Part shown: in pieces, positions 2,541 to 18,362 of the stretch
How the letters are laid out: every line of letters begins with the position of its first letter
How positions within the stretch are numbered: the first letter of the stretch is position 1
Source of the DNA: Jatrophihabitans telluris
Lineage (GTDB): Bacteria > Actinomycetota > Actinomycetes > Mycobacteriales > Jatrophihabitantaceae
Direction: 5' to 3'
DNA: 64,000 nt
Assembly (NCBI RefSeq): GCF_023516435.1
Contig: NZ_CP097332.1
Span: forward strand, 62,001 to 126,000
Notes under the pieces: generated by a model
Told to the model about the DNA's origin: nothing
Seen by the model: only the letters and a program-made list of their open reading frames with translations
The model's database searches: none
Made by a program: the position numbers and the translations under genes

Positions 2541-3563
2541 CTAGGCCGGGGCCGGTCCGGTGGTCGCACGCACGACGAGTTCGACGGGGAGCAGGCTCTG
2601 GGCCGGACGCGCCGCCTCCCCCGAGGTCGCGATCCACTCCAGCAAGGTGCGGGCGGCTGCGGCACCCATCTCGGTCAACGGCACGGCGACGGTGGTCAGG
2701 GCGGGGGTCAGCTTGCGCATGAAGGGCAGGTCGTTGAAGCCGGTGAGCGAATAGTCCTGCGGGCAGCGCAGTCCGGCCTCGCCGAGCGTGGCCATCGCCC
2801 CCAGCGCGAGCAGGTCATTGGCCGCCACGATGGCCGAGAACGGGCGGCCCCCAGCGAGCAGCCGCTGTGCCGCCTCCACTCCGGCCGCTTCGGAGTAGGC
2901 GGCGCACTCGATGACCGAGGAACGAACGGGGATGCGGTGCTCGCGCAGCGCCGCACGGAAGGCCACGGCGCGCTCCCGGCCGGTCGAGGTGTCCGCCGGA
3001 CCGGCGAGGTGGACGATCTCGCGGTGGCCGAGAGCGGCCAGGTGCTCGACGCACAGCCGGACCCCACGCTGGTCGTCGCTGCCGACGAAAGGCAGGGAGG
3101 CCTCCCGGCAGCGCCGGTTCACCAGCACCGTCGGAATGCCGGCCGACACCAGCTCGTCCACCACCGGGTCCTGCCAGCGGGCCGTGGCCACGATGAATCC
3201 GTCGACCCCGTGCGCGCGCATCGAGGCGACCTGGCCGCGTTCCATCTCCAGATCGTTGTTGGTGTCGGTGAGGACCAGCGTGAAACCCGCCCCGCTGAGC
3301 ACCTGTTCGGCCCCGCGGACGATGGGCGGGAAGAGACTGTTGGTGATGTCGGGGATGACCAGTGCCGCGACGAACGACCGGGAGGTACGCAGGCCCCGTG
3401 CCAGCGTGTTGGGGACGTAGCCGAGCCGCTCGGCCGCCCTCATCACCCGCTGTACGGTGCGCTGGTTGACCTCGCCGCGGGCGTTGGGGTTGAGCGCCCG
3501 GCTCGCCGTCGCCGGATGCACTCCCGCCTCGCGCGCCACCTCCACCAACCGGACCCTCGACAT
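2541..3563 (-). CDS. LacI-family transcriptional regulator of the adjacent transport/catabolic operon
   Basis: A 340-residue repressor with an N-terminal LacI helix-turn-helix (VRLVEVAREAGVHPATASRAL, first ~25 residues; hinge to ~60) and a periplasmic-binding-protein-like effector domain containing the usual AANDLLALGAM and FTSTRP-type region. I chose ATG 3563 rather than GTG 3569 because TAGGGT at 3570-3575 is followed by exactly 6 bases and then this ATG, implying a leaderless transcript. It is divergent from the HAAT transporter operon, and three matching LacI-type operators lie between and inside the two genes (3606, 3702, 3816), so it very likely controls that operon and itself. The inducer is unknown. 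Confidence 0.93.
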   Translation of the reverse strand: MSRVRLVEVAREAGVHPATASRALNPNARGEVNQRTVQRVMRAAERLGYVPNTLARGLRTSRSFVAALVIPDITNSLFPPIVRGAEQVLSGAGFTLVLTDTNNDLEMERGQVASMRAHGVDGFIVATARWQDPVVDELVSAGIPTVLVNRRCREASLPFVGSDDQRGVRLCVEHLAALGHREIVHLAGPADTSTGRERAVAFRAALREHRIPVRSSVIECAAYSEAAGVEAAQRLLAGGRPFSAIVAANDLLALGAMATLGEAGLRCPQDYSLTGFNDLPFMRKLTPALTTVAVPLTEMGAAAARTLLEWIATSGEAARPAQSLLPVELVVRATTGPAPA

Positions 3564-3605
3564 GCGCACACCCTAACGGTCGGCGCCGGCTCTGGCGGCC
3601 GTTAT

Positions 3606-3668: not shown

Positions 3669-3697
3669 TTGACACGGGCAGTTAACACAGACATGCT
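3669..3697 (+). promoter_or_regulatory. Probable promoter of the transporter/catabolic operon
   Basis: TTGACA at 3669-3674 is a perfect -35 hexamer; 17 bases on, CATGCT (3692-3697) is a weak -10. The predicted start point (about 3704) falls inside operator O2, which suits LacI repression. The -10 is poor, so an activator or a different start is possible. Confidence 0.45.
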
Positions 3698-3701
3698 CGA
3701 C

Positions 3702-3715
3702 CGCAATCGATTGTG
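3702..3715. promoter_or_regulatory. LacI-type operator O2
   Basis: CGCAATCGATTGTG has the central CG and the CGCAA half-site of LacI-family operators, with one mismatch in the right half. It overlaps the predicted transcription start of the transporter operon. Spacing to O1 is 96 bases and to O3 114 bases. Confidence 0.75.
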
Positions 3716-3806: not shown

Positions 3807-5072
3807 GTGCAGTATCGCAATCGTTTGCGGACCGGAACCACCGTCGCCACCGCCGCCCTGGCGGTGATCGTCCTGGCCACCGGGTGCGCGTCCAAGGCAG
3901 GCGGCAACGGGCCGTCCACGACGGCCAGCAACGGGGGCGCCAGCAAGGCGCCCCTGGTGATCGGAGCGTCGGTCTCGCTCACCGGTGACTTCTCCGACTC
4001 CGGCAAGGGCGTGCAACGCGGCTACCAGCTGTGGGCCGACACGGTCAACGCCAAGGGAGGCATCCTCGGGCGCAAGGTCACGATCAAGATCGTCGACGAC
4101 GCATCGAGCCCCACCCAGGTCGTGACCAACTACCAGAACCTGATCAACAAGGATCACGTCGACCTCACCTTCGGGCCCTTCTCCACCTTGCTCACCATCC
4201 CGGCCTCCCAGGTCGCCAAGCGATACGGCTACGCCTTCCTCGCGCCGGCCGGCGGCGGACCCGATGTGTTCAAGCAGAAGCTGAACAACTTCTTCTTCGT
4301 CCAGCCCGCGCCCACGACCCAGTCCGGTGACGTCTTCGCCAACTACATCCTGTCGCTGAGCGCGGCGGACCGGCCCAAGACCGCCGCTTACGCCGAACTG
4401 GACGACCCGTTCTCGGCCCCCATCGCCGAGAACATCCGCGCGAAGTTCGAAGCGGCCGGGATCCAGACCGTCTACAAGCAGGTCTACCCGTCCGAGACGC
4501 AGGACCTCTCGCCCGTGATGGCCGCGATCGCCGCCAAGAAGCCCGACGTGATCATCGGTGGCACCCAGAGCGAGGACGCCTACGCCCAGGTCAAGAGCCT
4601 CGTGCAGCTGAAGTACAACCCCAAGTTCATGTTCCAGTCCAACGGGGCGAACTCGCCGCTGGAATACCCGAACAAGGTCGGCGCGGCCAACACGACGGGC
4701 ATCATGTCCTCCGCGGACTGGTACCCCGGCTCCAAGGCCTCCGGCAGTGATGCCTTCACCGCCGCCTACATCGCGAAGTTCGGCGGCAGCGCCCAGACGG
4801 TGGACGACAACAGCGCCGAGGCCTACGCGGCCGGACAGTTGCTCGAGGCGGTCGCCACCAAGACCGGCAAGATCGACAACGCCACCATCATCAGCTCGTT
4901 GCACTCGGGAAGCTGGCCGACCATCCTGGGCGACCTGGCCTGGGGTTCGGATGGGGCGCCGACCGGCGAGTACAGCCTCGTCCAGTGGCAGTCCGGCAAG
5001 TTGCTTCCGGTGTTCCCGTCCGGCGTGGCCCAGGCCAGCCCGGTCTTCCCCAAGCCCAACTGGGGCGGCTGA
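3807..5072 (+). CDS. HAAT-type ABC transporter substrate-binding lipoprotein
   Basis: A 421-residue lipoprotein from GTG 3807, preceded by AAAGGGG. Residues 4-8 are basic, residues 12-26 hydrophobic, and LATGC places the lipidated cysteine at residue 27. The mature part is a type I periplasmic-binding (LivJ-like) fold: VIGASVSLTGDFSDSGKG opens the domain. The family binds branched-chain amino acids but also amides, urea and aromatic acids, so the ligand is open. It is the first gene of an operon running to 16344, and its LacI operators and the catabolic genes downstream suggest the ligand is a carbon or nitrogen source degraded by those enzymes. Confidence 0.92.
   Translation: MQYRNRLRTGTTVATAALAVIVLATGCASKAGGNGPSTTASNGGASKAPLVIGASVSLTGDFSDSGKGVQRGYQLWADTVNAKGGILGRKVTIKIVDDASSPTQVVTNYQNLINKDHVDLTFGPFSTLLTIPASQVAKRYGYAFLAPAGGGPDVFKQKLNNFFFVQPAPTTQSGDVFANYILSLSAADRPKTAAYAELDDPFSAPIAENIRAKFEAAGIQTVYKQVYPSETQDLSPVMAAIAAKKPDVIIGGTQSEDAYAQVKSLVQLKYNPKFMFQSNGANSPLEYPNKVGAANTTGIMSSADWYPGSKASGSDAFTAAYIAKFGGSAQTVDDNSAEAYAAGQLLEAVATKTGKIDNATIISSLHSGSWPTILGDLAWGSDGAPTGEYSLVQWQSGKLLPVFPSGVAQASPVFPKPNWGG
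3816..3829. promoter_or_regulatory. LacI-type operator O3 inside the coding sequence
   Basis: CGCAATCGTTTGCG is the most symmetric of the three sites and lies within codons 4-8 of the substrate-binding protein, encoding the basic n-region (Arg-Asn-Arg-Leu-Arg) of its signal peptide. Its distance to O1 is 210 bases, about 20 helical turns, which would permit a repression loop. Confidence 0.7.
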
Positions 5073-5076
5073 TCCG

Positions 5077-5955
5077 ATGCATGCACTGATCCAAGGCATC
5101 ATCCTCGGCGTCCTGACGGCCGGCGTCTACGCCCTTATGGCGTCGGGTCAAACCCTGATCTTCGGCATCATGAAGGTGGTCAACCTCGCCCAGGGCGCGA
5201 TGGTCATCCTGGGCGCGTACCTGTCCTACCAGCTGTTCACCTCGTTCGGGATCGATCCCCTGCTCTCGATCCCGATCACCACGGTGGCGATGTTCGTCAT
5301 CGGCGTCGCGGTCGAGGTGTTCTTCCTCCGGCCGTTGCGCCGGGAGGACCGGTCCGAGCTCAGCCTGCTGGTCACCTTCGCCGTCGCGTTGCTGCTCGAA
5401 GGCATCATGAGCGTGACCTGGAAGACCACCGTCCGCAGCACGAACACCAGCTACGCAAACAGCAGCTGGACGGTCTTCGGCTACCAGATCACCCTGGTTC
5501 GACTGTGGGCCTTCCTGTTGTCGATCGCAGCGCTCGGGGTTCTGTACCTGCTGCTGAACCGCACCCGTTTCGGCCGCGCCATTCGGGCCACGGTCCAGAA
5601 TCCGGAATCGGCCCGGCTGCTCGGCGTCGAGTCGAGCCGGGTGTCCGCGCTCGGCTTCGGCCTCGGTGCCGCGACAGCCGCCGCGGCCGGCTCGGTGTAC
5701 GGCCTGCTGTACCCGTTCAACTCCGGTAGCCACTACGACCTGATCTCGCGGTTGCTGTCGATCGTCCTGCTCGGCGGTCTCGGCAGCATCGGCGGCGCGG
5801 TCGTGGGAGCGCTGATCGTGTCGACGTCGTCGGCGATCGTCGCCTCCACGATCTCGCCCAGCTGGTCGGAGATGACGTTCTTCGTCATCCTGCTGCTGGT
5901 TCTGCTCATTCGCCCGCAGGGATTGTTCGGCACCACCGCACGAGGAGCAATATGA
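5077..5955 (+). CDS. HAAT ABC transporter permease, LivH type
   Basis: A 292-residue inner-membrane permease from ATG 5077, four bases after the stop of the binding-protein gene. The frame stays open far upstream, but MHALIQGIILGVLTAGVYAL is the standard LivH N-terminus and fixes the start. About eight membrane segments are visible, with the family motif GIMKVVNLAQGAMVILGAY near residues 30-48. It pairs with the LivM-type permease to form the channel. Its stop overlaps the next start (ATGA). Confidence 0.93.
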   Translation: MHALIQGIILGVLTAGVYALMASGQTLIFGIMKVVNLAQGAMVILGAYLSYQLFTSFGIDPLLSIPITTVAMFVIGVAVEVFFLRPLRREDRSELSLLVTFAVALLLEGIMSVTWKTTVRSTNTSYANSSWTVFGYQITLVRLWAFLLSIAALGVLYLLLNRTRFGRAIRATVQNPESARLLGVESSRVSALGFGLGAATAAAAGSVYGLLYPFNSGSHYDLISRLLSIVLLGGLGSIGGAVVGALIVSTSSAIVASTISPSWSEMTFFVILLLVLLIRPQGLFGTTARGAI

Positions 5956-7016
5956 GGTCGACGTCCTGGCTCAGCCCCGTTCGCGGCGTGGCGTTCTTCG
6001 CCATCCTGGCCAGCCTGCCCTCGTTCAATCTTGCGCATTGGGTACTGAACATCGCGGTCTTCACCCTGATGTACGCGGTCATGTCCAGCTCCTGGAACCT
6101 GGTCGGCGGCTTCGCCGGCTACCCGTCGCTGGGGCACGCGGCCTTCTTCGGCATCGGCGCGTACTCGACCGCTCTGTGGTTCCAGCACCACAGCATCACC
6201 AGCGGATACGAACCGTTCATCCTGCTTCCACTGATCGGCGTGGTCGCGGCGCTCATCGGACTGCCCGTGGCCTTCATCGCGATGCGCACCCGATCGGACG
6301 TGTTCGCGATCGTCACGATCACCCTGCTCTTCGTCACGCAGACGCTGGCGTTCAACCTGCGCTCGCTCACCCATGGCGCGCAGGGTCTGGCCATCGCGGT
6401 GGCGCCGTTCTCCGCACGCACCTACGAGCGGCCCTTCTACTACGTGCTGCTCATCCTGCTTGCGGCGTCGATGGTCATCAGCTTCGCAACGATGCGCAGC
6501 AAGTTCGGGCTGGCGCTGGCCGCCGTCCGAGCCGATGAGGACAAGGCGCGCGGCATCGGCGTGCGGACCTTCGGGGTGAAGGTGCTGTCGTTCTCGATCA
6601 GCGTCGGTCTCACCGCGATGGTCGGCGGGATCTGGGCCTACTACGAAGGCTTCATCTACCCCCAGTTCGCCGTCGATCCGCTGGTCACCATCGCGATCGT
6701 GCTGATGACCTTCCTCGGCGGCCGCGCCACCCTGTGGGGTCCGGTGCTCGGAGCGTTCATCCTCGAGACGGCGCAGCAGACGCTGGCGTACTCGCTCGGC
6801 GGCAGCCAGTTCTACCTGATCGCGTACGCCATGGTCTTCCTGCTCGTCATGCTGCTCCTCCCGCGGGGCATCGTGCCCTCGATCCAGGACGGCCTGAGAC
6901 GGCGACGGCGACGGGCGGCGGTCGATGCCCCGGGCAGCGACTCGCTCAACCAACCCAAGGAGGCCAGAGGCCACGCCGGCCGAACACCGGCCTCGACCGT
7001 GAAGGGACACGCCTGA
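5952..7016 (+). CDS. HAAT ABC transporter permease, LivM type
   Basis: A 354-residue permease starting inside the stop of the LivH-type gene. It has about nine hydrophobic segments and the LivM signature GYPSLGHAAFFGIGAYSTA (residues ~56-74). The final ~40 residues are a charged cytoplasmic tail (RRRRRRAAVD then Pro/Ala-rich) longer than usual. It forms a heterodimer with the LivH-type permease. The stop overlaps the next gene by one base (TGATG). Confidence 0.92.
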   Translation: MRSTSWLSPVRGVAFFAILASLPSFNLAHWVLNIAVFTLMYAVMSSSWNLVGGFAGYPSLGHAAFFGIGAYSTALWFQHHSITSGYEPFILLPLIGVVAALIGLPVAFIAMRTRSDVFAIVTITLLFVTQTLAFNLRSLTHGAQGLAIAVAPFSARTYERPFYYVLLILLAASMVISFATMRSKFGLALAAVRADEDKARGIGVRTFGVKVLSFSISVGLTAMVGGIWAYYEGFIYPQFAVDPLVTIAIVLMTFLGGRATLWGPVLGAFILETAQQTLAYSLGGSQFYLIAYAMVFLLVMLLLPRGIVPSIQDGLRRRRRRAAVDAPGSDSLNQPKEARGHAGRTPASTVKGHA

Positions 7017-7747
7017 TGACCGCGTTGCTCGAGGTCGACGGCCTCGCCAAGAGCTTCGGGTCGGTGCACGCGGTGGATTCGGCCTCGTTCGAGGTGCAGC
7101 CCAACACCATCACCGCCCTGATCGGACCCAACGGCTCGGGCAAGACCACGCTGTTCAACCTGATCACCGGATACCTGCCGCCCGACCAGGGCCAGGTCCG
7201 CTTCCAGGGACGCGACATCACCGGTTCGAGTTCGGGACGGTTGTACCGGCGCGGGCTGTCGCGCACCTTCCAGCAGGCGCGGATCTTCCCGCAGCTCACC
7301 GTGCAGGAGAACCTCACGGTCGCGGCGGGGTATTCCTGGCAACAGCTGTTCGGCAGGCGGATGAGCCGGGCCGACCGCGAACGCGTGGGCAGCCTGCTCG
7401 AGGAGTTCCGGATGGGCCATGTGGCCGACCTGTTCGCCTCGGAACTGTCCTACGGCCAGCGCAAGTTGCTGGAGTTCGCCGCCGTGCTGATGAGTTCGCC
7501 CAGCCTCATCCTGCTCGACGAACCAACGGCCGGGGTCAACCCCGTCATGATCGAGACGATGGAGCACCACATCCGCGAGCGTCACGCCGCTGGAATCACC
7601 TTCCTGATCGTCGAGCACGACATGAACTTCGTGATGCGGCTCTGCGATCCGGTCATCGTGCTGGACCAGGGCCGGGAGATCTTCGTCGGACCCCCGAGTC
7701 AGGTTCAGACCAATCCGCTCGTCCTCGACGCCTACCTGGGGAGTTGA
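7016..7747 (+). CDS. HAAT ABC transporter ATPase, LivG type
   Basis: A 243-residue ATP-binding subunit from ATG 7016. The frame is open upstream, but that part is LivM in another frame; MTALLEVDGLAKSFG is the usual LivG start. Walker A (GPNGSGKT, about residues 38-45), signature LSYGQ and Walker B LILLDEPTAG with the catalytic Glu are intact, so it should hydrolyse ATP. It works with the LivF-type ATPase on the cytoplasmic face of the permease pair. Confidence 0.93.
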   Translation: MTALLEVDGLAKSFGSVHAVDSASFEVQPNTITALIGPNGSGKTTLFNLITGYLPPDQGQVRFQGRDITGSSSGRLYRRGLSRTFQQARIFPQLTVQENLTVAAGYSWQQLFGRRMSRADRERVGSLLEEFRMGHVADLFASELSYGQRKLLEFAAVLMSSPSLILLDEPTAGVNPVMIETMEHHIRERHAAGITFLIVEHDMNFVMRLCDPVIVLDQGREIFVGPPSQVQTNPLVLDAYLGS

Positions 7748-7749
7748 TC

Positions 7750-8526
7750 GTGAACACCTTGCTCACCCTGCACGACGTGGTCGCCGGCTACGGCGCGGGC
7801 GACATCCTCAAAGGCGTGGACCTCGAGGTCAGCGCCGGGACCGTGACCTGTCTGATCGGTCCGAACGGCGCGGGCAAGTCGACCGTGCTCAAGTGCGTCA
7901 GCGGCCTGCTTCGACCGCGGCTTGGTTCGGTGCGTTTCCAGGACGAGGAGATCAATCGTCTGTCCCCCCGGGCCCGCCTGCTGAAGGGGATCGTGCACGT
8001 GCCGCAGGACCGCAGCCTGTTCCCGGCCATGACGGTCATGGACAACCTGCTGATGGGCGGCTACGTGATGTCGGACCAGAAGGCGGTACGGCGCCGGATC
8101 GAAGAGGCGGCGGAGGTCTTCCCCATCTGCCGCAAGCGCGCCAACGACCACGCCGGATCGTTGTCCGGAGGCGAGCAGAAGCAGGTCGAATTGGCTCGCA
8201 CGCTCGTCCTCGACCCTGCCCTGATCCTGCTGGACGAACCCTCGATCGGGCTCGACCCGAAATCCCGGCATCAGGTCTTCGCCAGCATCCGCCGCCTCGC
8301 CGAGAGCGGACGCACCGTCCTGCTCGTCGAGCAGAACGCCCGCTCGGGGCTGGCCGCCTCGGACTTCGGCGCCGTTCTGGAAAGCGGCGTGGTGCGACTG
8401 GTGGCCACCGGAACCGAGTTGCTCGATGACCCCGAAGTTGCCCGGCTGTACCTCGGCGCCGCCGGCGCCCGCACAGCACCCACGAACTCAGTCGCCTCGG
8501 CGGCACCCGGAGAAGGAGCACGATGA
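7750..8526 (+). CDS. HAAT ABC transporter ATPase, LivF type
   Basis: A 258-residue ATPase. A TTG at 7744 is in frame, but GGGGAG at 7738-7743 sits six bases before GTG 7750, which I take as the start. Walker A GPNGAGKS, signature LSGGEQKQVE and Walker B LILLDEPSIG are complete. The last ~20 residues form an Ala/Pro-rich tail. Its stop overlaps the start of the dehydrogenase gene by four bases, which ties the transporter to the catabolic genes. Confidence 0.92.
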   Translation: MNTLLTLHDVVAGYGAGDILKGVDLEVSAGTVTCLIGPNGAGKSTVLKCVSGLLRPRLGSVRFQDEEINRLSPRARLLKGIVHVPQDRSLFPAMTVMDNLLMGGYVMSDQKAVRRRIEEAAEVFPICRKRANDHAGSLSGGEQKQVELARTLVLDPALILLDEPSIGLDPKSRHQVFASIRRLAESGRTVLLVEQNARSGLAASDFGAVLESGVVRLVATGTELLDDPEVARLYLGAAGARTAPTNSVASAAPGEGAR

Positions 8527-9470
8527 TCACAGAGCAGAGCCGCATCGGGTGGATCGGTGCGGGGCGGATGGGCCATGCCATGGCGGCCAGGTTGCTCAAG
8601 CACGGCCGCGACGTGACGGTGTGGAACCGCACCCGCGCCAAGGCCGAGGACCTGATCGGACTCGGCGGGCACCTGGCCGACACCATCGCCGAACTGGCCG
8701 ATCGCGACATCGTCTTCACGATGGTCTCGGCCGACGCCGACCTCCTCGAGGTCATGCTCGGCGAGGGTGGGCTGCTCAAGCAGGAATCCATCCCGGCCGT
8801 CATCGTCGACTCGAGCACCGTCTCGGCAGCGACCTCGGACATCGTCCGCGAGGCGGTCACCGCGCGCGGCTCGGCGTTCCTGGTCTGCCCCGTGAGCGGT
8901 AACGCCAAGGTCGTCAAGGCCGGTCGCCTGTCGATTGCGGCGTCGGGCTCGGAGGAGATCTTCAGCCAGGTCGAACCGCTGCTGTCCGACATCGCGGCTT
9001 CGGTCACCTACGTCGGCGAAGGCGACCTGGCGCGGTTGGTCAAGATCGCCCACAACGTCTTCCTCGGCGTCGTGACCCAGTCGCTGGCCGAAATCACCGT
9101 GCTCGCCGAGCAGGGCGGGGTGAGCCGGGCGGCCTTCCTCGACTTCCTCAACCGTTCGGTGATGGGCTCGACCTTCAGCCGGTACAAGGCGCCGGCAATG
9201 GTCAATCTGGATCTGACTCCGACCTTCACGACGACCCTGCTGCGCAAGGATCTGGACCTCGGCCTGGCCGCGGCTCGCGCCCTCAACGTGACCATGCCCC
9301 TCACCGCGGCCACTCATGCCCTCGTGCAGGCGGCCATCGGGCGCGGACACGGCGATGCGGACTTCGCTGCACTGCTCGTGGAGCAGGCGCGCTCCTCCGG
9401 CGTCGAACTCAAGCCGGAGAACGTCGAGGTCGACGACGGTCTGGGCACCGCGCCCCAGGCTTCGGTGTGA
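8523..9470 (+). CDS. NAD(P)-dependent beta-hydroxyacid dehydrogenase (3-hydroxyisobutyrate dehydrogenase family)
   Basis: A 315-residue enzyme. The Rossmann motif GWIGAGRMG (residues 9-17), the substrate-binding loop CPVSGNAKVVKAGRL and the catalytic lysine motif KIAHN are all present, as in 3-hydroxyisobutyrate, tartronate-semialdehyde and related dehydrogenases. It should interconvert a 3-hydroxyacid and its semialdehyde or oxoacid in the cytosol. It overlaps both neighbours by four bases. With the aldehyde dehydrogenase two genes on, it could supply an alcohol-aldehyde-acid sequence. The usual DGGASG-like stretch is CPVSGN here, so substrate preference may differ. Confidence 0.88.
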   Translation: MITEQSRIGWIGAGRMGHAMAARLLKHGRDVTVWNRTRAKAEDLIGLGGHLADTIAELADRDIVFTMVSADADLLEVMLGEGGLLKQESIPAVIVDSSTVSAATSDIVREAVTARGSAFLVCPVSGNAKVVKAGRLSIAASGSEEIFSQVEPLLSDIAASVTYVGEGDLARLVKIAHNVFLGVVTQSLAEITVLAEQGGVSRAAFLDFLNRSVMGSTFSRYKAPAMVNLDLTPTFTTTLLRKDLDLGLAAARALNVTMPLTAATHALVQAAIGRGHGDADFAALLVEQARSSGVELKPENVEVDDGLGTAPQASV

Positions 9471-10720
9471 GTGCCACGCACGACGCTCGACCGCTGGCCG
9501 CCCCGGGCCACATGGGCGTCGACTACGAGATGCGCATCGATTTCGACCGGTTGCGGAGCTATCGCCTGCAGCGGGCGAAGGAATCGCTGTCGGCGAGTGG
9601 TTGCGGGGCCTTCCTGCTGTTCGACTTCTACAACATCCGCTACGTCACCCAGACCTGGATCGGCGGCGCGCTCGGCGACAAGATGACGCGCTACGCGCTG
9701 CTGACCGATCCCGGCGAACCGATGCTGTGGGACTTCGGCTCGGCGGCACGGCACCACCGGCTGTACTCGCCCTGGCTGGAGCCGGAGAACTGCCACGCCG
9801 GGATGCTCGGCCTGCGCGGGGCGATCGCGCCGAGCGCAGGGCTGATGGAGTCGGCCGTGCGGCAGATCAAGGGGCTGCTCACCGATGCGGGCGTCGCCGA
9901 CTCACCGGTCGGGGTCGATATCGTCGAGCCGGCCTTCCTGTTCGAGATGCAGCGCCAGGGGCTGACCGTCGTCGATGCCCAGCAGTTCATGCTCGACGCC
10001 CGGGTGATCAAGAACCAGGACGAGATCATCCTGCTCAACCAGGCCGCAGCGATGGTCGACGGCGTCTATCAGGACATCGTCGAGGCCCTGCGGCCCGGCA
10101 TTCGCGAGAACGAGATCGTCGCCCTGGCCAGCAAGCGCCTGTACGAGATGGGATCGGACCAGGTCGAGGCGATCAACGCGGTCAGTGGCGAACGCTGCAA
10201 CCCGCACCCGCACAACTTCTCCGACCGCCTGATCCGTCCTGGCGACCAGGCCTTCTTCGACATCATCCACTCCTACAACGGCTATCGGACCTGCTACTAC
10301 CGAACCTTCAGTGTCGGCAGCGCCACCGCCAGCCAACGGGATGCCTACACCAAGGCCCGCGAGTGGATGGACGTCGCTATCGCCGCGGTCAAACCGGGCG
10401 TCGGTACCGACGAGATCGCCGCGCTGTGGCCGGCGGCGACCGAGTTCGGTTTCGCCACGGAGATGGACGCCTTCGGTCTGCAGTTCGGGCACGGTCTCGG
10501 ACTCGGCCTGCACGAGCGGCCGATCATCTCCCGGCTCAACAGCATGACCGAGCCGATCGAACTCCAGGCCGGGATGGTGTTCGCCCTGGAGACGTACTGC
10601 CCCGCCAGCGACGGGTTCTCCGCCGCCCGGCTGGAGGAGGAGATCGTCGTGACGGAGTCCGGTCCCCGGCTGCTGACGCTCTTTCCGGCCCAGGACCTCA
10701 TCGTCACCAATCCGTTCTGA
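9467..10720 (+). CDS. Creatinase-fold M24-family hydrolase with an altered metal site
   Basis: A 417-residue protein from GTG 9467 (GTGA overlap). Residues ~20-165 form the creatinase/prolidase N-domain and ~180-410 the pita-bread catalytic domain. The five metal positions of M24 peptidases read D265, C276, H342 (FGHGLGLGLHERP), E375 (LETYCP) and E390 (EEEIVV): the second aspartate is a cysteine, with the normal 11-residue spacing to D265. Creatinase also lacks this aspartate and is not a metallopeptidase. I therefore read it as a C-N hydrolase on the imported compound, not a general Xaa-Pro peptidase. The reaction is inference. Confidence 0.85.
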   Translation: MSATHDARPLAAPGHMGVDYEMRIDFDRLRSYRLQRAKESLSASGCGAFLLFDFYNIRYVTQTWIGGALGDKMTRYALLTDPGEPMLWDFGSAARHHRLYSPWLEPENCHAGMLGLRGAIAPSAGLMESAVRQIKGLLTDAGVADSPVGVDIVEPAFLFEMQRQGLTVVDAQQFMLDARVIKNQDEIILLNQAAAMVDGVYQDIVEALRPGIRENEIVALASKRLYEMGSDQVEAINAVSGERCNPHPHNFSDRLIRPGDQAFFDIIHSYNGYRTCYYRTFSVGSATASQRDAYTKAREWMDVAIAAVKPGVGTDEIAALWPAATEFGFATEMDAFGLQFGHGLGLGLHERPIISRLNSMTEPIELQAGMVFALETYCPASDGFSAARLEEEIVVTESGPRLLTLFPAQDLIVTNPF

Positions 10721-10738
10721 CCAACCGAGGAAACTGAC

Positions 10739-12184
10739 ATGACCCTCTCGACCGAGCTTTCCACGGACCTGTTCATCGGTGGCAAGAGCGTGGCCGCCTC
10801 CGATGGCAGCCGCTTCGACGTCATCGATCCCGCGACCGGGCAGAGCATCGCCACGGTGGCCGACGCCTCCGTCGCGGATGCGATCGCCGCGGTCGACGCC
10901 GCCGACAACGCCGCACCGGGCTGGGCCGCGCTGGCTCCGCGCCAACGGGCCGAGATCCTGCGGCGCGCCTTCGAGCTCATGACCGAGCGGGCGGAGGAGT
11001 TCGCCCAGCTCATCACGCGCGAAAACGGCAAGGCCCTCCCCGACGCGCGCGGCGAGGTTGCCTACGCGGCCGAGTTCTTCCGGTGGTATTCGGAGGAGGC
11101 ATCGCGGATCACCGGCTCGGTGGCCACCGCCCCGAACGGCGCGAACCGGATTCTGGTCGTTCGGGAACCCGTGGGGATCTGCGTCCTGGTCACCCCGTGG
11201 AACTTCCCGGCGGCGATGGCCACTCGCAAGATCGGGCCCGCCCTGGCGGCTGGCTGCACCGTGGTCCTCAAACCGGCCAGCGACACCCCGCTGACCGCGC
11301 TGGCGATGGCCGCGCTCCTGGACGAGGCCGGCGTTCCGCCCGGCGTGGTCAACGTGATCCCCGGCCGTCGCTCGGGCGCGATCGTCTCGGCGATGTTGCA
11401 CGACCCACGGGTCCGCAAGTTGTCGTTCACCGGTTCCACCGAGGTGGGACGGCTGCTGCTGCGCGAGTCCGCCGATCACATCGTCAACACCTCGATGGAA
11501 CTGGGCGGCAACGCGCCGTTCCTGGTCTTCGCCGACGCGGATCTGGACGCGGCCCTCGACGGCGCCATGATCGCCAAGATGCGTAACGCGGGCGAGGCAT
11601 GCACGGCGGCGAACCGGATCTACGTCGAGGCGTCGGTCGCGCCGGAATTCAGTCGACGGCTGGCCGAGCGGATGGCGGCCCTGGTCCTCGGCCCTGGGCT
11701 GGAGGACGGCGTGCAGGTCGGCCCGCTGGTCAACCAGGACGCCGTCGACAAGGTGTCCCAGCTGGTGTCCGACGCGGTCGACAACGGAGCGCGGGTGCTG
11801 CTCGGCGGGCAGGTTCCCGAGCGCGCCGGCTTCTACTACGAGCCGACCGTGCTCGTTGACGTCGATCCCGAATCCGCCTTGCTGCGCGAGGAAATCTTCG
11901 GCCCGGTCGCGCCGATCGTCACCTTCCAGACCGAGGACGAGGCCGTCCGGCTGGCCAACGCCACCGAGTACGGACTCGTTTCCTACGTCTACACCGGGGA
12001 TCTGGCGCGCGGCCTGCGGGTCAGCGAGCGCTTGGAATCGGGCATGGTCGGGCTCAACCGCGGACTGGTCAGCGATCCGGCCGCACCGTTCGGCGGCGTC
12101 AAGCAGAGCGGGATCGGCCGTGAGGGTGGCCACGAGGGCGTGCTGGACTACACCGAATCCAAGTACATCGCGGTGGCGTGGTGA
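10739..12184 (+). CDS. NAD(P)-dependent aldehyde dehydrogenase (succinate-semialdehyde dehydrogenase-like)
   Basis: A 481-residue ALDH with GAGGAAACTGAC before ATG 10739. The nucleotide-binding FTGSTEVGR, the general base E254 in MELGGNAP and the nucleophile C288 in GEACTAAN are all in place. Sequence style is closest to succinate-semialdehyde and related straight-chain semialdehyde dehydrogenases. It presumably oxidises an aldehyde made by the preceding enzymes to the acid. It is separated from the M24 gene by 18 bases and overlaps the VOC gene. Confidence 0.93.
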   Translation: MTLSTELSTDLFIGGKSVAASDGSRFDVIDPATGQSIATVADASVADAIAAVDAADNAAPGWAALAPRQRAEILRRAFELMTERAEEFAQLITRENGKALPDARGEVAYAAEFFRWYSEEASRITGSVATAPNGANRILVVREPVGICVLVTPWNFPAAMATRKIGPALAAGCTVVLKPASDTPLTALAMAALLDEAGVPPGVVNVIPGRRSGAIVSAMLHDPRVRKLSFTGSTEVGRLLLRESADHIVNTSMELGGNAPFLVFADADLDAALDGAMIAKMRNAGEACTAANRIYVEASVAPEFSRRLAERMAALVLGPGLEDGVQVGPLVNQDAVDKVSQLVSDAVDNGARVLLGGQVPERAGFYYEPTVLVDVDPESALLREEIFGPVAPIVTFQTEDEAVRLANATEYGLVSYVYTGDLARGLRVSERLESGMVGLNRGLVSDPAAPFGGVKQSGIGREGGHEGVLDYTESKYIAVAW

Positions 12185-12756
12185 GCTCGGTGAGCACGCC
12201 GGAATCCGCGGCACCGGAAACCGAACCGCACCGGCGCCCGGGACTCCCCGGGATGACCGGTGTGGACCACATCGGTTTCACCGTCCCCGACCTCGACCAG
12301 GCCCGGCGGTTCCTCGTCGACGTCCTGGGCTGCGAATACCTCTACGCCCTTGGGCCCTACGTCCACGACGACGACTGGATGAGCGAGCACCTCGACGTCC
12401 ACCCGCGCGCCGTCATGCAGCAGTTGCACTTCTTCCGCTGTGGCGACCAGGCCGTCTTCGAGGTTTTCCAGTACTCGGCGCCCGACCAACGAACCGACCG
12501 CCCCCGCAACAGCGACGTCGGCGGCCATCACGTGGCGTTGTACGTCGAGGACATGGACGAGGCGGTGACCTATCTGACCGAGCGCGGCGTGACGGTGCTC
12601 GGGCAGCCGACCGCCAGCAGCGGTCCCAGCAGCGGCCAGCGCTGGGTGTACTTCCTGGCGCCGTGGGGCATGCAGTTCGAACTGGTGTCCTACCCGAACG
12701 GCAAGGCCTTTGATCCTCAAGCGACCGCGGGCGGTCCCCACCGGAGAAGCGCATGA
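12181..12756 (+). CDS. VOC-superfamily metalloenzyme (glyoxalase/epimerase/dioxygenase fold)
   Basis: About 191 residues from GTG 12181, which overlaps the ALDH stop as GTGA; GTG 12178 and 12190 are also possible. After a Pro/Glu-rich N-tail, the VOC fold begins at MTGVDHIGFTVPDLDQARRF. Candidate metal ligands are the His of VDHIGF, the His pair in GGHHVALYV and the Glu of FELVSYP. VOC enzymes do isomerisation, epimerisation, lyase or ring-cleavage chemistry. Its place between the ALDH and the 2-oxoacid dehydrogenase says it handles a pathway intermediate, but not which. Confidence 0.8.
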   Translation: MSSVSTPESAAPETEPHRRPGLPGMTGVDHIGFTVPDLDQARRFLVDVLGCEYLYALGPYVHDDDWMSEHLDVHPRAVMQQLHFFRCGDQAVFEVFQYSAPDQRTDRPRNSDVGGHHVALYVEDMDEAVTYLTERGVTVLGQPTASSGPSSGQRWVYFLAPWGMQFELVSYPNGKAFDPQATAGGPHRRSA

Positions 12757-14933
12757 CCGATTACAAGTCCCTCGACCCCGCCGCGACCTGGCAGGAGGTC
12801 AGCACCTCGGAAGCGGATTGGGATTCGGCTGCGCCCGAGCTGCTGAGCGCCATGTTCAGCCAGCTCGTCCTGATCCGCAGCTTCGAGGAGTTCGTCCTGG
12901 AACTGGCCGCCGAAGGCCTCGTGCACGGGCCGGCCCACTCCAGCATCGGCCAGGAGGGCGGGGCTGTCGGCTCCGTCCTCGCCCTGACCAGCGAGGACAC
13001 GGTCAACGGTTCGCATCGCGGGCATCATCAATTCCTGGCGAAAGTGCTCCAGCACATCGAACCGAAGGGGATCGACCCCACGGCGCCGTACTCGGACGAG
13101 ATCCGCGGGGTGCTGCTCACCAGTCTGGCCGAGATCTGCGGACTGGACCGCGGCTTCAGCCACGGACGCGGTGGATCGATGCACCTGCAGTGGAAACAGG
13201 CCGGTGCGATCGGCACGAACGCCATCGTCGGCGGTGGCGTCCCTCTGGCGGCGGGCTCGGCCTGGGCCCACCGGCAGGCAGGCACCGACGCGGTCGCCGT
13301 CACGTATTTCGGCGACGGCGCCATCAACATCGGCTCCACGCTGGAGACGTTCAACCTGGCCGCGGCGTGGAAGCTGCCGATCTGCTTCTTCGTCGAGAAC
13401 AACGGTTATGCGGTGTCCACCAGTGTGGCCGAGGCGACCGGTGAACCCCGCCTGTCGGGCCGAGGACCCGGGTTCGGCATTCGCAGCTTCTCCGTCGACG
13501 GGATGAATCCGCTGGCCGTCTACCTGACGATGGTCGAGGCGGTGGAGCACATGCGTGCCGGCCACGGCCCGACCCTGGTCGAGGCCCACGTCTACCGCTA
13601 CTTCCACCAGAACGGCGGCTTCGCCGGCAGCGCGTTCCGGTATCGCACGAAGGAGGAGGAGACGGCCTGGCGCGCCCGCGATCCGATCGAGCAGCTCGCA
13701 TTCCACCTGCAACGGCGCGAGATCCTCACCTCCGACGAGCTGAGTGACAGCAGGCACCGCGCGCAGCAGTTGATGGCCGACGTCGGTGGCGTACTGCTCG
13801 AAGCCGTGCCCGGCGGCAAGCCCGGCCAGCGCCGGATCGTCGCCACCGAGTGGCCGGATCCGGCCTTCGTCGACGTGGGTGTGCGCGGTGACCTGAGCGA
13901 GTTCGAGGACGCCTATATCAGCGACCGCGACAGCTTCACCGGCCAGCTCGCGGAGACCAAGTTCATCGACGCCGTCGCCACCGTGATGAACCGGCGCATG
14001 TCCACCGACCCCGGCATCGTCGTGATGGGCGAGGACGTTCATCACCTCAACGGCGGAACCAACGGAGCCACCCGAGGACTCAAGGAGGCCTACCCGGACC
14101 GCGTGCTGGGCACGCCGATCAGCGAGAACGCCTTCACCGGCCTCGGCGGCGGGATCGCGCTCGACGGCCGGTTCACGCCCGTCGTCGAGCTGATGTACGC
14201 CGACTTCATGTGGGTCGCGGCCGATCAGCTGTTCAATCAGATCGGCAAGGCACGGCACATGTACGGTGGGACCGGCGCGGTCCCGTTCGTGCTCCGCAGC
14301 AAGGTCGCGATGGGCACTGGGTACGGCTCCCAGCACTCGATCGACCCGGCCGGCATCTTCGCCACCGCACCGGGCTGGCGGATCGTCGCCCCGTCCACCC
14401 CGTTCGACTACGTCGGTCTGATGAACACCGCTCTGCGCTGCCAGGACCCCGTCGTCGTACTGGAACACGTCGACCTCTACAACTCCGTCGGCGAGGGACC
14501 CGTCGAGGACTTCGACTACTGCCTGCCGGTGGGGCGGGCCGCGGTTCGCCGGGAAGGTACGCAGGTCACGATCCTGAGCTACCTGGCCATGACCAACTAC
14601 GTCCTGGAGGCCGTCGCCGAGGTCGAATCGGTCGACGCCGAGGTGATCGACCTGCGCTGGCTGGACCGGGCGAGCCTGGACTGGGACACGATCGGCGCGA
14701 GCATCGCCAAGACCAACTGCGTCATCATCGCCGAGCAGGGCCCCCGCGGGACCTCCTACGGCGCCTGGCTGGCCGACGAGATCCAGCGGCGGTACTTCGA
14801 CTGGCTCGATCACCCGGTGCAGCGAGTAACCGGCGGTGAGGCCTCCCCGAGTATCAGCAAGGTGCTCGAACGCGCCGCGATCGCCCAGAGCGCTGAGGTC
14901 GTCGCGGCCCTGCGCGAGATCGAGGGACGCTGA
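12753..14933 (+). CDS. 2-oxoacid dehydrogenase E1, alpha and beta subunits fused
   Basis: A 726-residue thiamine-diphosphate enzyme. The alpha-like half (about 25-360) has the ThDP motif GDG...ENN (FGDGAINIGSTLETFNLAAAW to CFFVENN); the beta-like half (about 405-726) has GEDVHHLNGGTNGATRGL and EQGPRGTSYGAWLADEI. Many relatives are two separate proteins; a single-chain E1 is less common. It decarboxylates a 2-oxoacid and passes the acyl group to lipoyl-E2. Acetoin, pyruvate and branched-chain oxoacids are all possible substrates. It overlaps the VOC gene and is one base from the E2 gene. Confidence 0.9.
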   Translation: MTDYKSLDPAATWQEVSTSEADWDSAAPELLSAMFSQLVLIRSFEEFVLELAAEGLVHGPAHSSIGQEGGAVGSVLALTSEDTVNGSHRGHHQFLAKVLQHIEPKGIDPTAPYSDEIRGVLLTSLAEICGLDRGFSHGRGGSMHLQWKQAGAIGTNAIVGGGVPLAAGSAWAHRQAGTDAVAVTYFGDGAINIGSTLETFNLAAAWKLPICFFVENNGYAVSTSVAEATGEPRLSGRGPGFGIRSFSVDGMNPLAVYLTMVEAVEHMRAGHGPTLVEAHVYRYFHQNGGFAGSAFRYRTKEEETAWRARDPIEQLAFHLQRREILTSDELSDSRHRAQQLMADVGGVLLEAVPGGKPGQRRIVATEWPDPAFVDVGVRGDLSEFEDAYISDRDSFTGQLAETKFIDAVATVMNRRMSTDPGIVVMGEDVHHLNGGTNGATRGLKEAYPDRVLGTPISENAFTGLGGGIALDGRFTPVVELMYADFMWVAADQLFNQIGKARHMYGGTGAVPFVLRSKVAMGTGYGSQHSIDPAGIFATAPGWRIVAPSTPFDYVGLMNTALRCQDPVVVLEHVDLYNSVGEGPVEDFDYCLPVGRAAVRREGTQVTILSYLAMTNYVLEAVAEVESVDAEVIDLRWLDRASLDWDTIGASIAKTNCVIIAEQGPRGTSYGAWLADEIQRRYFDWLDHPVQRVTGGEASPSISKVLERAAIAQSAEVVAALREIEGR

Positions 14934-14934
14934 C

Positions 14935-16344
14935 ATGCCGGTACTGCTGCGGATGCCCGAGGTCGCCGCGAACACCACCGAAGCCGTGCTGCTGAGCTGG
15001 CCGATGGCCGAGAACGTGCCCTTCGCCTCCAGGGACACCATCGCCACCGTCGAGACGGCCAAGGCCGTGGTGGACGTCGAAGCCGAGTCGGCCGGGGTGA
15101 TTCTGCGGACCCTCGTGAGCGAGGGGACCGAGGTCGCGGTGGGCGATCCGATCGCGCTCATCGCTGCCACCGACGAGCAGGTCGCCGACGTGGACGCGGC
15201 GCTGCTGGCCTTGGGCTACGTCGCCGGCGGGTCATTGACCCCGGACATCGCCGATGCCCCCGACATTCCCGAGGCTGCCGACATTCCCGAGGCTGCCGAT
15301 GTTCCGGATGGTGGCGACGTCGCTGAGGCTGCCGATGTTCCGGATGGTGGCGACGTCGCTGAGGCTGCCGACGTCGCGCCGATGCCCGGCCAGAACCACA
15401 GCGAGAGCACGACCGCGAGGGTCTTCGCGAGCCCGCTCGCACGACGACTGGCACGCGAGGCCGACCTTCGCGTCGCCGACATCCAGGGCACCGGCCCCAA
15501 TCGCAGGATCGTGCGCCGCGACGTCGAACAAGCTTTGCAGCGAAGGGCGAAATCGGCGTCGGAGCCGACCCCGGTGACGGCCTCGCTACCCGACTCACCG
15601 CCCAACTCACTGCCGCCTGCGGGACCGATCTCAGGATCGGCAGCGGGATCGGCAGCGGGATCGGCCGAGTTCCAGGACAAGCCACACTCCCGGCTCCAGC
15701 GGTTGATCGCGGCCCGGTTGACCGAGAGCAAGCAGACCGTCCCGCATTTCTACCTTCGCGCCGCGGCGCGGGTGGACCGGCTGCTGGCGCTGCGGGCCGA
15801 GTTGAACGACAACGCCACGGTCCGGGTGTCGGTGAACGATCTGGTCGTCAAGGCCGTGGCGTGCGCGCACGCGCAGGTACCGGCCCTGAACGCCCAATGG
15901 ACCGACGAGGCCATGCGGTGGTTCGCCGCCTCCGACATCGCGGTGGCCATTGCGGCCCCGGCCGGGCTCGTCACGCCCGTCCTGCGCGATGTCGGCCGGC
16001 TGTCGATCACCGACGTGGCCCGGGGCACCAAGGACTTCGTCGCGCGCGCCGGCGACGGACAATTGCGCCAGGCCGAGCTCGAAGGCGGGAGCATCACCGT
16101 CACCAACCTGGGCATGTACGGCGTGCACGACTTCGACGCCATCATCAACCCGCCCCAAGCGGCGATCCTCGCGGTCGGCGCGGCAACGCAGGAACCCCTG
16201 GTACGTAAGGGAACCGTGCGGGTGGCGACGATGATGCACCTGACCCTGTCCGTCGACCATCGGGTCGCCGACGGGGCGGCGGCCGCGCAATGGTTGGCGG
16301 CGCTGGTCGAGGTGCTGGAGCGTCCGATCCGGATCCTGGCCTGA
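14935..16344 (+). CDS. 2-oxoacid dehydrogenase E2 acyltransferase (lipoyl protein)
   Basis: A 469-residue protein from ATG 14935. The lipoyl domain (1-75) has the lipoylation lysine K43 in VETAKAVVDV. An acidic Ala/Pro linker (~100-150) contains repeats of a PDGGDVAEAADV unit. A peripheral-subunit-binding domain follows (ASPLARRLAREADLRVADI, ~165-200), then the CoA-acyltransferase domain with catalytic H442 and D446 in DHRVADG. It is the acyl-CoA-forming core for the E1 upstream. No E3 gene follows, so lipoamide dehydrogenase must come from elsewhere. It is the last gene of the operon. Confidence 0.92.
   Translation: MPVLLRMPEVAANTTEAVLLSWPMAENVPFASRDTIATVETAKAVVDVEAESAGVILRTLVSEGTEVAVGDPIALIAATDEQVADVDAALLALGYVAGGSLTPDIADAPDIPEAADIPEAADVPDGGDVAEAADVPDGGDVAEAADVAPMPGQNHSESTTARVFASPLARRLAREADLRVADIQGTGPNRRIVRRDVEQALQRRAKSASEPTPVTASLPDSPPNSLPPAGPISGSAAGSAAGSAEFQDKPHSRLQRLIAARLTESKQTVPHFYLRAAARVDRLLALRAELNDNATVRVSVNDLVVKAVACAHAQVPALNAQWTDEAMRWFAASDIAVAIAAPAGLVTPVLRDVGRLSITDVARGTKDFVARAGDGQLRQAELEGGSITVTNLGMYGVHDFDAIINPPQAAILAVGAATQEPLVRKGTVRVATMMHLTLSVDHRVADGAAAAQWLAALVEVLERPIRILA
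15256..15385 (+). repeat. Tandem repeats encoding the E2 linker
   Basis: Two near-identical 36-bp units (GCTGCCGATGTTCCGGATGG...) follow two shorter GACATTCCCGAGGCTGCC units. They encode a flexible acidic Ala/Pro linker between the lipoyl and E3-binding domains, a segment that tolerates length change. Confidence 0.8.
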
Positions 16345-16369: not shown

Positions 16370-17473
16370 CTACCCGTCGGTCCCGAGCGGCAGCACGAAC
16401 GTGGCGCTGGGGGCCTGGACCGTCAAGACGTCGCCCGCGCTCCCGGTTTCGTGCAGCCGGACGGCCACCACCGTGCCCGAGACCTCGTTGGCGATGTAGA
16501 GCCAGTCGGCGACCACGGCGATGTGCCGCGGCCACTGACCGTGGGCCGGCACGGCCCCGATCCGCTCCACCCGGTGCGCGCAAGACGCGTCGATACTCGC
16601 TGTTCCGTCCACCGCGAACAGCGTGATCTCGTCCGCACCGCGCTGCGAGGCGAACAGTCGCGACCCTTCCAGCACGAGGGTCGCCGCGAGGTTGCCGGAC
16701 GAGTTCGCGTCCGCAAGGCACGGGACGTGCTGGCTCACTTCCGGCCGCTGCGCCGACCAGTCGATGACCGCCAGCGAACTGTCGAGCTCGCCCAACACGT
16801 AAGCGGTCGATCCGTCCGGCGCGAACACGATCTGGCGCGGCCCGGAACCGCTCGGCAGCGAAACGGCCGCAAGGTCGGGTCCGAACCGTCCGGTCGACGG
16901 ATCGAACGGCACCCGCCGGACCACGTCGGCGCCGAGGTCGGCCACGGCCAGCTCGGAATGCCCCGGCCGCAGCGCGATCATGTGCGGGTGCGAGCTCTGC
17001 TGCCGCGCGGCCAGCGGCCCACTGCCGGTGAAACGCCGGACGTCCGTCGCAGGACCGAGCTCGCCGGACGGCGAAACCGGATGCACCGCGATCGTCGATC
17101 CCGAGTAGTTCGCGGTGAAAAGAAACTCCCCCGACGGGTCGAGCAACAGGTGGCACGGGTCCGCGCCCCCACTGGGCCGACTCGAGACCGGGACCAGTGA
17201 GACCGACGAGGCCGGCCCGTAGGCATCCAGCCGAAAGCTGTGCAGCACGCCCGGATCACCCTCCTCGACCGCGAAAACCACCTCGCCGTCGAGGGAAACC
17301 GCCAGCGCGCTGGGTGATACGGCCGCGCCCGCGAGGCCGGTGACGGTCAGCGTCGCCGCCGCGTGATCGTGTGTGAGGAGCAGCATCCCGACGCCGGTGC
17401 CGCGGGGTGGGGTGTAGCAGCCGATCAGCAACCGCAGCGGATCGGTCGGCTCGAAGGCGCTCACGGCCGTCAC
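16370..17473 (-). CDS. Seven-bladed beta-propeller lactonase (6-phosphogluconolactonase YbhE family)
   Basis: About 367 residues from GTG 17473, directly after the stop of the aldolase gene (one base apart), so the two are one operon. The sequence shows the lactonase family pattern, for example LLIGCYTPPRGTGVGM at the N-terminus, DPSGEFLFTANYSGSTIAVHPV, SSHPHMIALRPGHSELAVADLGAD and GQWPRHIAVVADWLYIANE, the last two being conserved blade motifs. The family hydrolyses sugar lactones. Together with the KDPG-aldolase-like gene it suggests a sugar-acid route converging on the LacI operon, though co-function is inference. Confidence 0.87.
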   Translation of the reverse strand: MTAVSAFEPTDPLRLLIGCYTPPRGTGVGMLLLTHDHAAATLTVTGLAGAAVSPSALAVSLDGEVVFAVEEGDPGVLHSFRLDAYGPASSVSLVPVSSRPSGGADPCHLLLDPSGEFLFTANYSGSTIAVHPVSPSGELGPATDVRRFTGSGPLAARQQSSHPHMIALRPGHSELAVADLGADVVRRVPFDPSTGRFGPDLAAVSLPSGSGPRQIVFAPDGSTAYVLGELDSSLAVIDWSAQRPEVSQHVPCLADANSSGNLAATLVLEGSRLFASQRGADEITLFAVDGTASIDASCAHRVERIGAVPAHGQWPRHIAVVADWLYIANEVSGTVVAVRLHETGSAGDVLTVQAPSATFVLPLGTDG

Positions 17474-17474
17474 C

Positions 17475-18182: not shown

Positions 18183-18362
18183 GTGCTCATCCCCCGTCTG
18201 CCCGGTCTCCACCTTGCCACCTGTGCCGGTACGGCCGGTAGAGCGGATAGGGCCGATGGGGACGGGTGGGGCAGCGCCCCTCGTACCTGGGCGAAGGTAG
18301 TTGTACGTTCACAGAAGGGACTCCGACGTAGGAGAGTCCGATCGAGAGGATGAGGAATACCC

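Follow-up and report, generated by a model that had tools for sequence, protein, structure and literature searches.

We analysed a 64,000-nucleotide window of Jatrophihabitans telluris (NZ_CP097332.1, positions 62,001 to 126,000), whose genome is a single contig of 4.19 Mb. The system described here is a set of eleven genes, all on the plus strand, at window positions 3807 to 16344 (Table 1). Analysis of the open reading frames (ORFs) and their protein families bears out the tightly packed arrangement described in an earlier sequence-only reading, with junctions that are overlaps of 1 to 7 bp or gaps of 1 to 18 bp. The first five genes encode a Peripla_BP_6 substrate-binding protein (SBP), two BPD_transp_2 permeases (P1 and P2), and two ABC_tran ATPases (A1 and A2), which together make up a HAAT importer; the nearest solved chains to the SBP are Leu/Ile/Val-type binding proteins. 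These are followed by a beta-hydroxyacid dehydrogenase of the 3-hydroxyisobutyrate dehydrogenase (HIBADH) type (HIB), an M24-fold enzyme, an aldehyde dehydrogenase (ALDH), a VOC protein, a fused thiamine pyrophosphate (TPP)-dependent E1, and a lipoyl E2. The five-component importer is shared with the Liv/HAAT importers of branched-chain amino acids; that of the operon, however, adjoins a LacI regulator and operator. By M24 protein, the nearest named relatives include metagenome-assembled genomes titled Pseudonocardiales (92%) and Jatrophihabitans (87%).

Table 1. Genes of the operon and elements of its control region (window coordinates)
Feature	Coordinates	Strand	Evidence and remarks
LacI-family regulator	2541-3569	-	Divergent from operon; NCBIfam LacI-family models, best RbsR, 206 bits (below cut-off of 382)
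Possible promoter TTGACA-17-CATGCT	3669-3697	+	Read by eye; ends 5 bp upstream of operator
Candidate LacI operator GCAATCGATTGTG	3703-3715		Pattern match; 5 bp downstream of -10-like hexamer
HAAT substrate-binding protein (SBP, Peripla_BP_6)	3807-5072	+	Pfam 1.5e-51
Second operator-like site GCAATCGTTTGCG	3817-3829		Within start of SBP gene; one mismatch to pattern
HAAT permease 1 (P1)	5077-5955	+	BPD_transp_2 2.8e-36
HAAT permease 2 (P2)	5952-7016	+	BPD_transp_2 2.1e-33
HAAT ATPase 1 (A1)	7016-7747	+	ABC_tran 1.7e-34; BCA_ABC_TP_C 25.1 bits, slightly under cut-off of 25.5
HAAT ATPase 2 (A2)	7744-8526	+	ABC_tran 4.9e-32
Beta-hydroxyacid dehydrogenase, HIBADH/GLYR type (HIB)	8523-9470	+	Pfam, NCBIfam; K174, N178
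M24-fold enzyme	9467-10720	+	Pfam M24 1.6e-38; alternative start 9512; Cys276 at metal-ligand Asp position
Aldehyde dehydrogenase (ALDH), succinate-semialdehyde-dehydrogenase-like	10739-12184	+	TIGR01780, 599 bits (below cut-off of 646)
VOC protein	12178-12756	+	Conserved H31, E95, H117, H118, E168
Fused E1 alpha-beta (TPP), FHQNG clade	12753-14933	+	E1_dh, Transket_pyr, Transketolase_C
Lipoyl E2 acyltransferase	14935-16344	+	TIGR01349, 379 bits (below cut-off of 445)

To describe the conservation of this locus, we used relatives of its M24 protein, of which the genome collection holds 266; locus counts refer to the best 80 of these 266, several of them cut by contig ends, with genes called by tblastn at 40% identity and 60% coverage. 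The arrangement recurs more often than chance would explain: HIB lies directly upstream of M24 in 76 of the 80 loci and ALDH directly downstream in 46, while lacI is present in 62 of these stretches, VOC in 44, E1 in 40, SBP in 33, and E2 in 32. Where E1 is present (n = 40), VOC lies within 1.5 kb in 37 loci and E2 directly beside E1 in 27. The sequence-only reading had proposed looking for the same gene order in other genomes, and the order SBP-P1-P2-A1-A2-HIB-M24 is contiguous in 6 of the 80 loci. In seven low-GC loci the gene caller returned nothing; a plain listing of ORFs shows that the system is present there and in other loci, including a locus that holds SBP to M24 (L113) and three that hold HIB, M24, VOC, E1, and ALDH (L094, L095, and L098). 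The L159 locus, from a 1.8-Mb genome, has no ALDH and carries lacI, SBP, P1, P2, A1, A2, HIB, M24, VOC, E1, and E2 in this order; none of the families named in it is an oxygenase, unless VOC is. The fused E1 itself is an accessory trait: counting this genome, E1 is found at E <= 1e-120 in 3 of 9 genomes of the genus, 21 of 249 of the order, and 3 of 246 of the phylum, and at E <= 1e-200 in 26 of 394 of the class. Keyword searches of open-licence PubMed Central papers, by title and the start of the abstract, returned no published match to the gene set and no characterised operon with the same gene order. As read from the sequence, the gene set and its order, the operator motif, the HIB/M24/ALDH and VOC/E1/E2 modules, and the loop change in E1 describe a real, conserved catabolic operon, by which one small compound is probably imported and degraded to a coenzyme A (CoA)-activated acid.

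Control by LacI, proposed in the sequence-only reading, is supported by both the window and its relatives. The sequence between lacI and the operon is CCGCAATCGATTGTGG, in which the palindrome CAATCGATTG sits just downstream of a promoter-like element; an automatic consensus promoter scan found no promoter in this gap at its threshold. The candidate operator GCAATCGATTGTG is the sole exact match to GCAATCGATTGYG in the genome. With one mismatch allowed, the operator core is not rare in the window alone (2 found, a number reached by 21 of 100 shuffles), and three further places in the genome match GCAATCGATTGYG, compared with two for the reversed control pattern. Because the genes adjoining these near-matches (2404908, 2426324, and 3578322) have no visible catabolic link and the reversed control also matches twice, we claim no wider regulon. 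Among 23 divergent lacI gaps (that of the window and 22 from related loci, one gap having been skipped for its length), 20 contain CAATCGNTTG or CAANCGATTG; in 500 rounds of single-base shuffling the mean was 0.03 and the maximum 1, and in 200 rounds with random stretches taken from these loci the mean was 0.585 and the maximum 3. The motif was picked after a first listing of the same gaps had been seen, and the figure of 20 of 23 is therefore biased towards it. Together, these results indicate that the operon is very probably LacI-controlled. The pairing of LacI with a HAAT importer, which had been called unusual, is indeed present; it also recurs in relatives and is therefore a feature of this system rather than peculiar to this locus.

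The fused E1 contains the TPP motif and the alpha and beta domains of a 2-oxoacid dehydrogenase E1; the (G/A)H(S/T)..D active-site loop of pyruvate dehydrogenase (PDH) and branched-chain 2-oxoacid dehydrogenase is absent from it. Where human PDH has YRYHGHS..DP, 59 of 60 fused E1 sequences (that of the window, 35 from M24 loci with an E1 over 690 aa, 11 from plasmid loci, and 13 from other loci) have YR[YF]FHQNG..[PA]GS, and Shinella has FHQSG. GH- or AH-type loops are found in five other E1s, namely the split E1s of Phaeobacter, Pacificitalea, and an Actinomycetota metagenome-assembled genome (L111) and two of this genome, whose third other E1 is blank in the loop alignment. In a tree of 29 chosen sequences, with long branches flagged for the outgroups and Shinella, the 24 fused E1s join with 100/99 support; the fused E1 is a distinct, supported clade. 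The E2 carries lipoyl and HxxxDG motifs. No E3 is encoded among the eleven genes, and four near-full-length LpdA-like matches (31 to 39%) lie elsewhere in the genome; the E3 is therefore probably borrowed from another locus, as had been proposed.

The M24 enzyme had been read as a creatinase-fold hydrolase that cleaves a C-N bond. Membership of the M24 superfamily holds; beyond it, the best scores lie far below model cut-offs: DddP at 95.9 bits (NF043017, cut-off 600), archaeal PepQ at 81.8 bits (cut-off 630), and two ectoine hydrolase models at 56.7 and 51.7 bits (cut-offs 613 and 575). The best PDB matches are prolidases, and the NCBIfam and PDB matches listed include neither a model nor a chain of creatinase (creatinase itself was left out of the comparison). 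Aligned to prolidases, the second Asp of the canonical ligand set D, D, H, E, E is replaced by Cys276, which is invariant in 36 aligned M24 sequences, down to 56% identity; the other metal ligands and the His preceding the metal site are retained. The enzyme thus shares its fold and most metal ligands with DddP and prolidases but scores far below the DddP cut-off and differs by this invariant Cys. C-N hydrolysis is thus only one possible activity of the enzyme, alongside C-C hydrolysis or elimination. An AlphaFold2 model of the protein had a mean pLDDT of 63 and was not used.

In HIB, K174 and N178, which are presumably catalytic, are conserved in at least 95% of 72 sequences. The score of the ALDH (Table 1) is short of that required for assignment as succinate-semialdehyde dehydrogenase. 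The VOC protein conserves H31, E95, H117, H118, and E168 in alignments of 41 and 39 sequences, with His and Glu at places that could fit the H/E/H/E ligand set of glyoxalase I-type enzymes such as nickel glyoxalase I. Its AlphaFold2 model (pLDDT 87.5) resembles in fold, among others, glyoxalase I of E. coli and an extradiol dioxygenase (6on3, among the top matches). We favour a role as an enediolate isomerase; because four ligand-like residues are conserved, an extradiol dioxygenase seems less likely. Methylmalonyl-CoA epimerase was rejected as an assignment (TIGR03081, 34.9 bits against a cut-off of 115).

Related loci combine these enzymes in several ways. M24 is found with three types of E1: the fused clade, a split E1 in Phaeobacter and Pacificitalea, and another split E1 (c51/c52), which accompanies M24 at three loci (L109, L111, and L116) and again in this genome, within a paralogous cluster. 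Because M24 accompanies three differing E1/E2 sets, the E1/E2 step probably follows that of M24. Phaeobacter and Pacificitalea have M24 with a short-chain dehydrogenase/reductase (SDR), split E1, lipoyl protein, ALDH, and E2 (lpdA was seen in Phaeobacter) and a weak HIB relative (31 to 33%) further away, and four loci (L028, L029, L169, and L170) have M24 with a CUT2-type importer and an SDR, with no HIB seen. The paralogous cluster lies outside the window at 2.526 to 2.532 Mb (C1:2526000-2532500; L174 and L175), next to a CUT2-type importer, and contains a zinc-type alcohol dehydrogenase, a VOC-like protein (33%), a second M24 (57 to 58%), a split E1 (74 to 75% to c51/c52), an E2, and EboE (397 bits, cut-off 250). 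Among proteobacterial plasmids, that of Cupriavidus, whose genes we named ourselves on a stretch without annotation, carries a regulator-like gene, HAAT importer, SDR, E1, VOC-like gene, E2, LpdA, a further SDR, ALDH, and a shikimate-dehydrogenase-like gene in a row. The corresponding stretch of Caballeronia lacks ALDH; most of the set is present on Phaeobacter inhibens p1, and parts of it, together with a GMC oxidoreductase, in Rhodovulum and Paracoccus. The E1 locus of Pseudomonas oryzihabitans is without a HAAT importer. E1 also occurs with glycerol-kinase-like, GlpD-like, triose-phosphate isomerase, class II aldolase, and HAD genes (L030, L039, and L041) and with a CUT1-type importer, DhaK, triose-phosphate isomerase, and an SDR (L036 and L037).

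We tentatively prefer, at somewhat less than even confidence, to read the operon as taking up a non-aromatic, polyhydroxylated, possibly amino-substituted compound and carrying out the lower part of its degradation, with TPP/lipoyl-dependent cleavage of an alpha-ketol or alpha-dicarbonyl. In favour of this reading are the pairing of M24 with three types of E1, the distinct E1 clade with its changed loop, the polyol-, triose-, and cyclitol-like genes (including IolM-like dehydrogenases and EboE) near E1 or M24 in other loci, and the make-up of L159. The operon would be repressed by LacI and induced by its substrate. The HAAT ABC importer would take up one small polar, non-aromatic, polyhydroxylated compound that is cyclitol- or hydroaromatic-like and may be substituted with an amino acid or amine. 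An alcohol would be oxidised by the HIBADH-type enzyme, whose place an SDR takes in some relatives; the M24 enzyme would hydrolyse a C-N or C-C bond, and the VOC metalloprotein would isomerise the product. The fused E1/E2, with an E3 from another locus, would then act in the manner of acetoin dehydrogenase and split the resulting alpha-ketol or alpha-dicarbonyl into acyl-CoA and an aldehyde, which ALDH would oxidise.

Acetoin and butanediol catabolism takes a diol to a ketol, the ketol to acyl-CoA and an aldehyde, and the aldehyde to an acid. Acetoin dehydrogenase (aco) with 2,3-butanediol dehydrogenase places a diol dehydrogenase, E1/E2(/E3), and an aldehyde dehydrogenase in series, as the operon would. 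The operon differs from aco in that its E1 is fused and has another loop and in that M24, VOC, HIBADH, a HAAT importer, and LacI are added; this comparison is of pathway logic, with no reference AcoAB sequence aligned. Myo-inositol catabolism with IolM or IolD shares the idea of a cyclitol dehydrogenase and TPP-dependent ring cleavage, and IolM-like genes occur in the paralogous cluster; however, these matches are below cut-off, and no iol-type dehydrogenase or dehydratase family is found among the eleven genes.

Several observations weigh against this reading. The substrate class, like every chemical step and repression itself, is our inference. ALDH is not immediately 3' of M24 in 34 of the 80 loci, the zinc-type alcohol dehydrogenase of the paralogous cluster is far below the cut-off of IolM, its best model (208 of 450 bits), and the glycerol-type genes beside E1 (L030, L039, and L041) may be chance neighbours. 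The loop also has a His no more than one residue away from the canonical position, so that loss of the catalytic His is not proven; this His may serve in 2-oxoacid activity, the other E1 catalytic residues being kept. The sequence-only reading had in fact envisaged a nitrogen-bearing compound, C-N hydrolysis by M24, oxidation to a true 2-oxoacid, and oxidative decarboxylation to acyl-CoA by E1/E2. Its route would draw on the TPP motif, the beta-half QH, and the Glu aligned with PDH that the fused E1 retains, on a PDH-like E2, and on the amino acids that HAAT importers often carry. We nevertheless doubt the oxidation to a 2-oxoacid, given that the E1 is part of a separate clade with a replaced loop and elsewhere stands beside polyol-, triose-, or cyclitol-like enzymes; no aminotransferase or amino-acid oxidase is found among the eleven genes, and we regard this route as unlikely overall.

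Degradation of a pantothenate- or pantoate-like compound appears very improbable. In this scheme, M24 would act as an amidase, HIBADH and ALDH on the hydroxymethyl group, and E1/E2 on a branched 2-oxoacid; HIB, M24, ALDH, and E1/E2 are all present, and their functions fit much of the classical pantoate route. However, the eleven genes include no decarboxylating dimethylmalate dehydrogenase, VOC is left unexplained, and members of the E1 clade also occur without M24, among other polyol genes.

Genes that accompany relatives of the operon also weigh against our preferred polyol-type pathway. These include the alpha/beta hydrolase c12 (L058:7863-8921 and relatives), which is found in 26 of the 80 M24 loci and is related to 2,6-dihydroxypseudooxynicotine hydrolase (best PDB match 2JBW, 3e-45), Mo-hydroxylase subunits (c14/c15) in 21 and 19 loci, and, in a single locus (L162), a DesA/LigM-like O-demethylase (556 of 800 bits) accompanied by a weak match to MetF and by a gene that we called PurU-like on inspection by eye. 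A CrtO-like FAD enzyme (224 of 1000 bits) in 12 loci and a luciferase-like monooxygenase with a flavin reductase on a Streptomyces plasmid argue against a pure polyol substrate. With the dioxygenase among the top VOC fold matches, the hydrolase, Mo-hydroxylase, demethylase, and monooxygenase genes would suit a lower pathway for an N-heteroaromatic or methoxylated aromatic compound, in which Mo-hydroxylase, C-C hydrolase, luciferase-like monooxygenase, or O-demethylase genes found only in some relatives attack the ring. Yet c12 had no match in this genome (one negative search, without a positive control), and the eleven genes contain no clear oxygenase, though VOC could be one; we consider an aromatic substrate distinctly improbable.

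One bolder proposal, a long shot, is that the operon degrades mycosporine-type sunscreen compounds with a citrate-like C6 acid as end product. Mycosporines are C7 cyclitol enaminones that bear a hydroxymethyl group and a tertiary hydroxyl on one carbon. M24 would detach the amino acid from the ring, whose hydroxymethyl group would become a carboxylate through HIBADH and ALDH; ring opening, as a ketol or dione and with CoA, would fall to VOC and the fused TPP/lipoyl complex. On heating in water, mycosporine-glycine is reported to yield a deoxygadusol together with glycine (PMC3083659), and the C-N bond is therefore labile. By chemical argument, the activities of the operon could carry the mycosporine skeleton to a citrate-like acid. 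No mycosporine catabolic gene cluster appears in titles and abstract starts among the matches listed from open-licence PubMed Central papers.

Other features were noted around the operon and its relatives. The genes upstream of lacI (YihY-like and carboxylate-amine-ligase-like) and the convergent lactonase-like and 2-keto-3-deoxy-6-phosphogluconate-aldolase-like genes directly downstream of the operon (16370-18212, minus strand) were named by eye and look unrelated. On a sulfonamide-degradation plasmid of Paenarthrobacter sp. R1 (L139, NZ_CP127116.1), the flavin reductase gene sulR has relatives of M24 and HIB as neighbours, and a P. ureafaciens SD-1 plasmid (L044, NZ_CP101190.1) carries an M24 and a HIB relative with VOC, E1, E2, RidA, an amidase, and a HAAT importer. 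A sulfonamide link was not used because the sad genes are described as mobile (PMC10873849). FolD, near E1 in 6 loci, may be an ordinary neighbour and was given little weight because four of these come from one family of genomes. A 300-aa protein (c5; L058:1727-2635 and 38 other loci) is weakly like NMT1/TAXI binding proteins, has no obvious signal peptide in the called sequences, and often adjoins an MFS gene and lacI. In mycobacteria and others, an LVIVD-repeat protein and a second protein weakly like beta-propeller anchors (c27 and c20; L108:271-2689) come with an NMT1-type ABC importer beside lacI-HIB-M24, and a c20 relative (44 to 45%) also occurs in two E1 loci (L036 and L037).

Many actinobacteria, some of them with small low-GC genomes, share the HIB/M24/ALDH and VOC/E1/E2 modules, and Proteobacteria also have the E1 clade; the substrate is therefore probably a common natural compound. 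An E1 clade of the TPP/lipoyl type whose active-site loop is replaced could extend the range of reactions known for the pyruvate dehydrogenase family; if mycosporines were the substrate, the fused E1 would be a new kind of ring-cleaving, acyl-CoA-forming complex. With importer, operator, and enzymes side by side, the system is easy to test.

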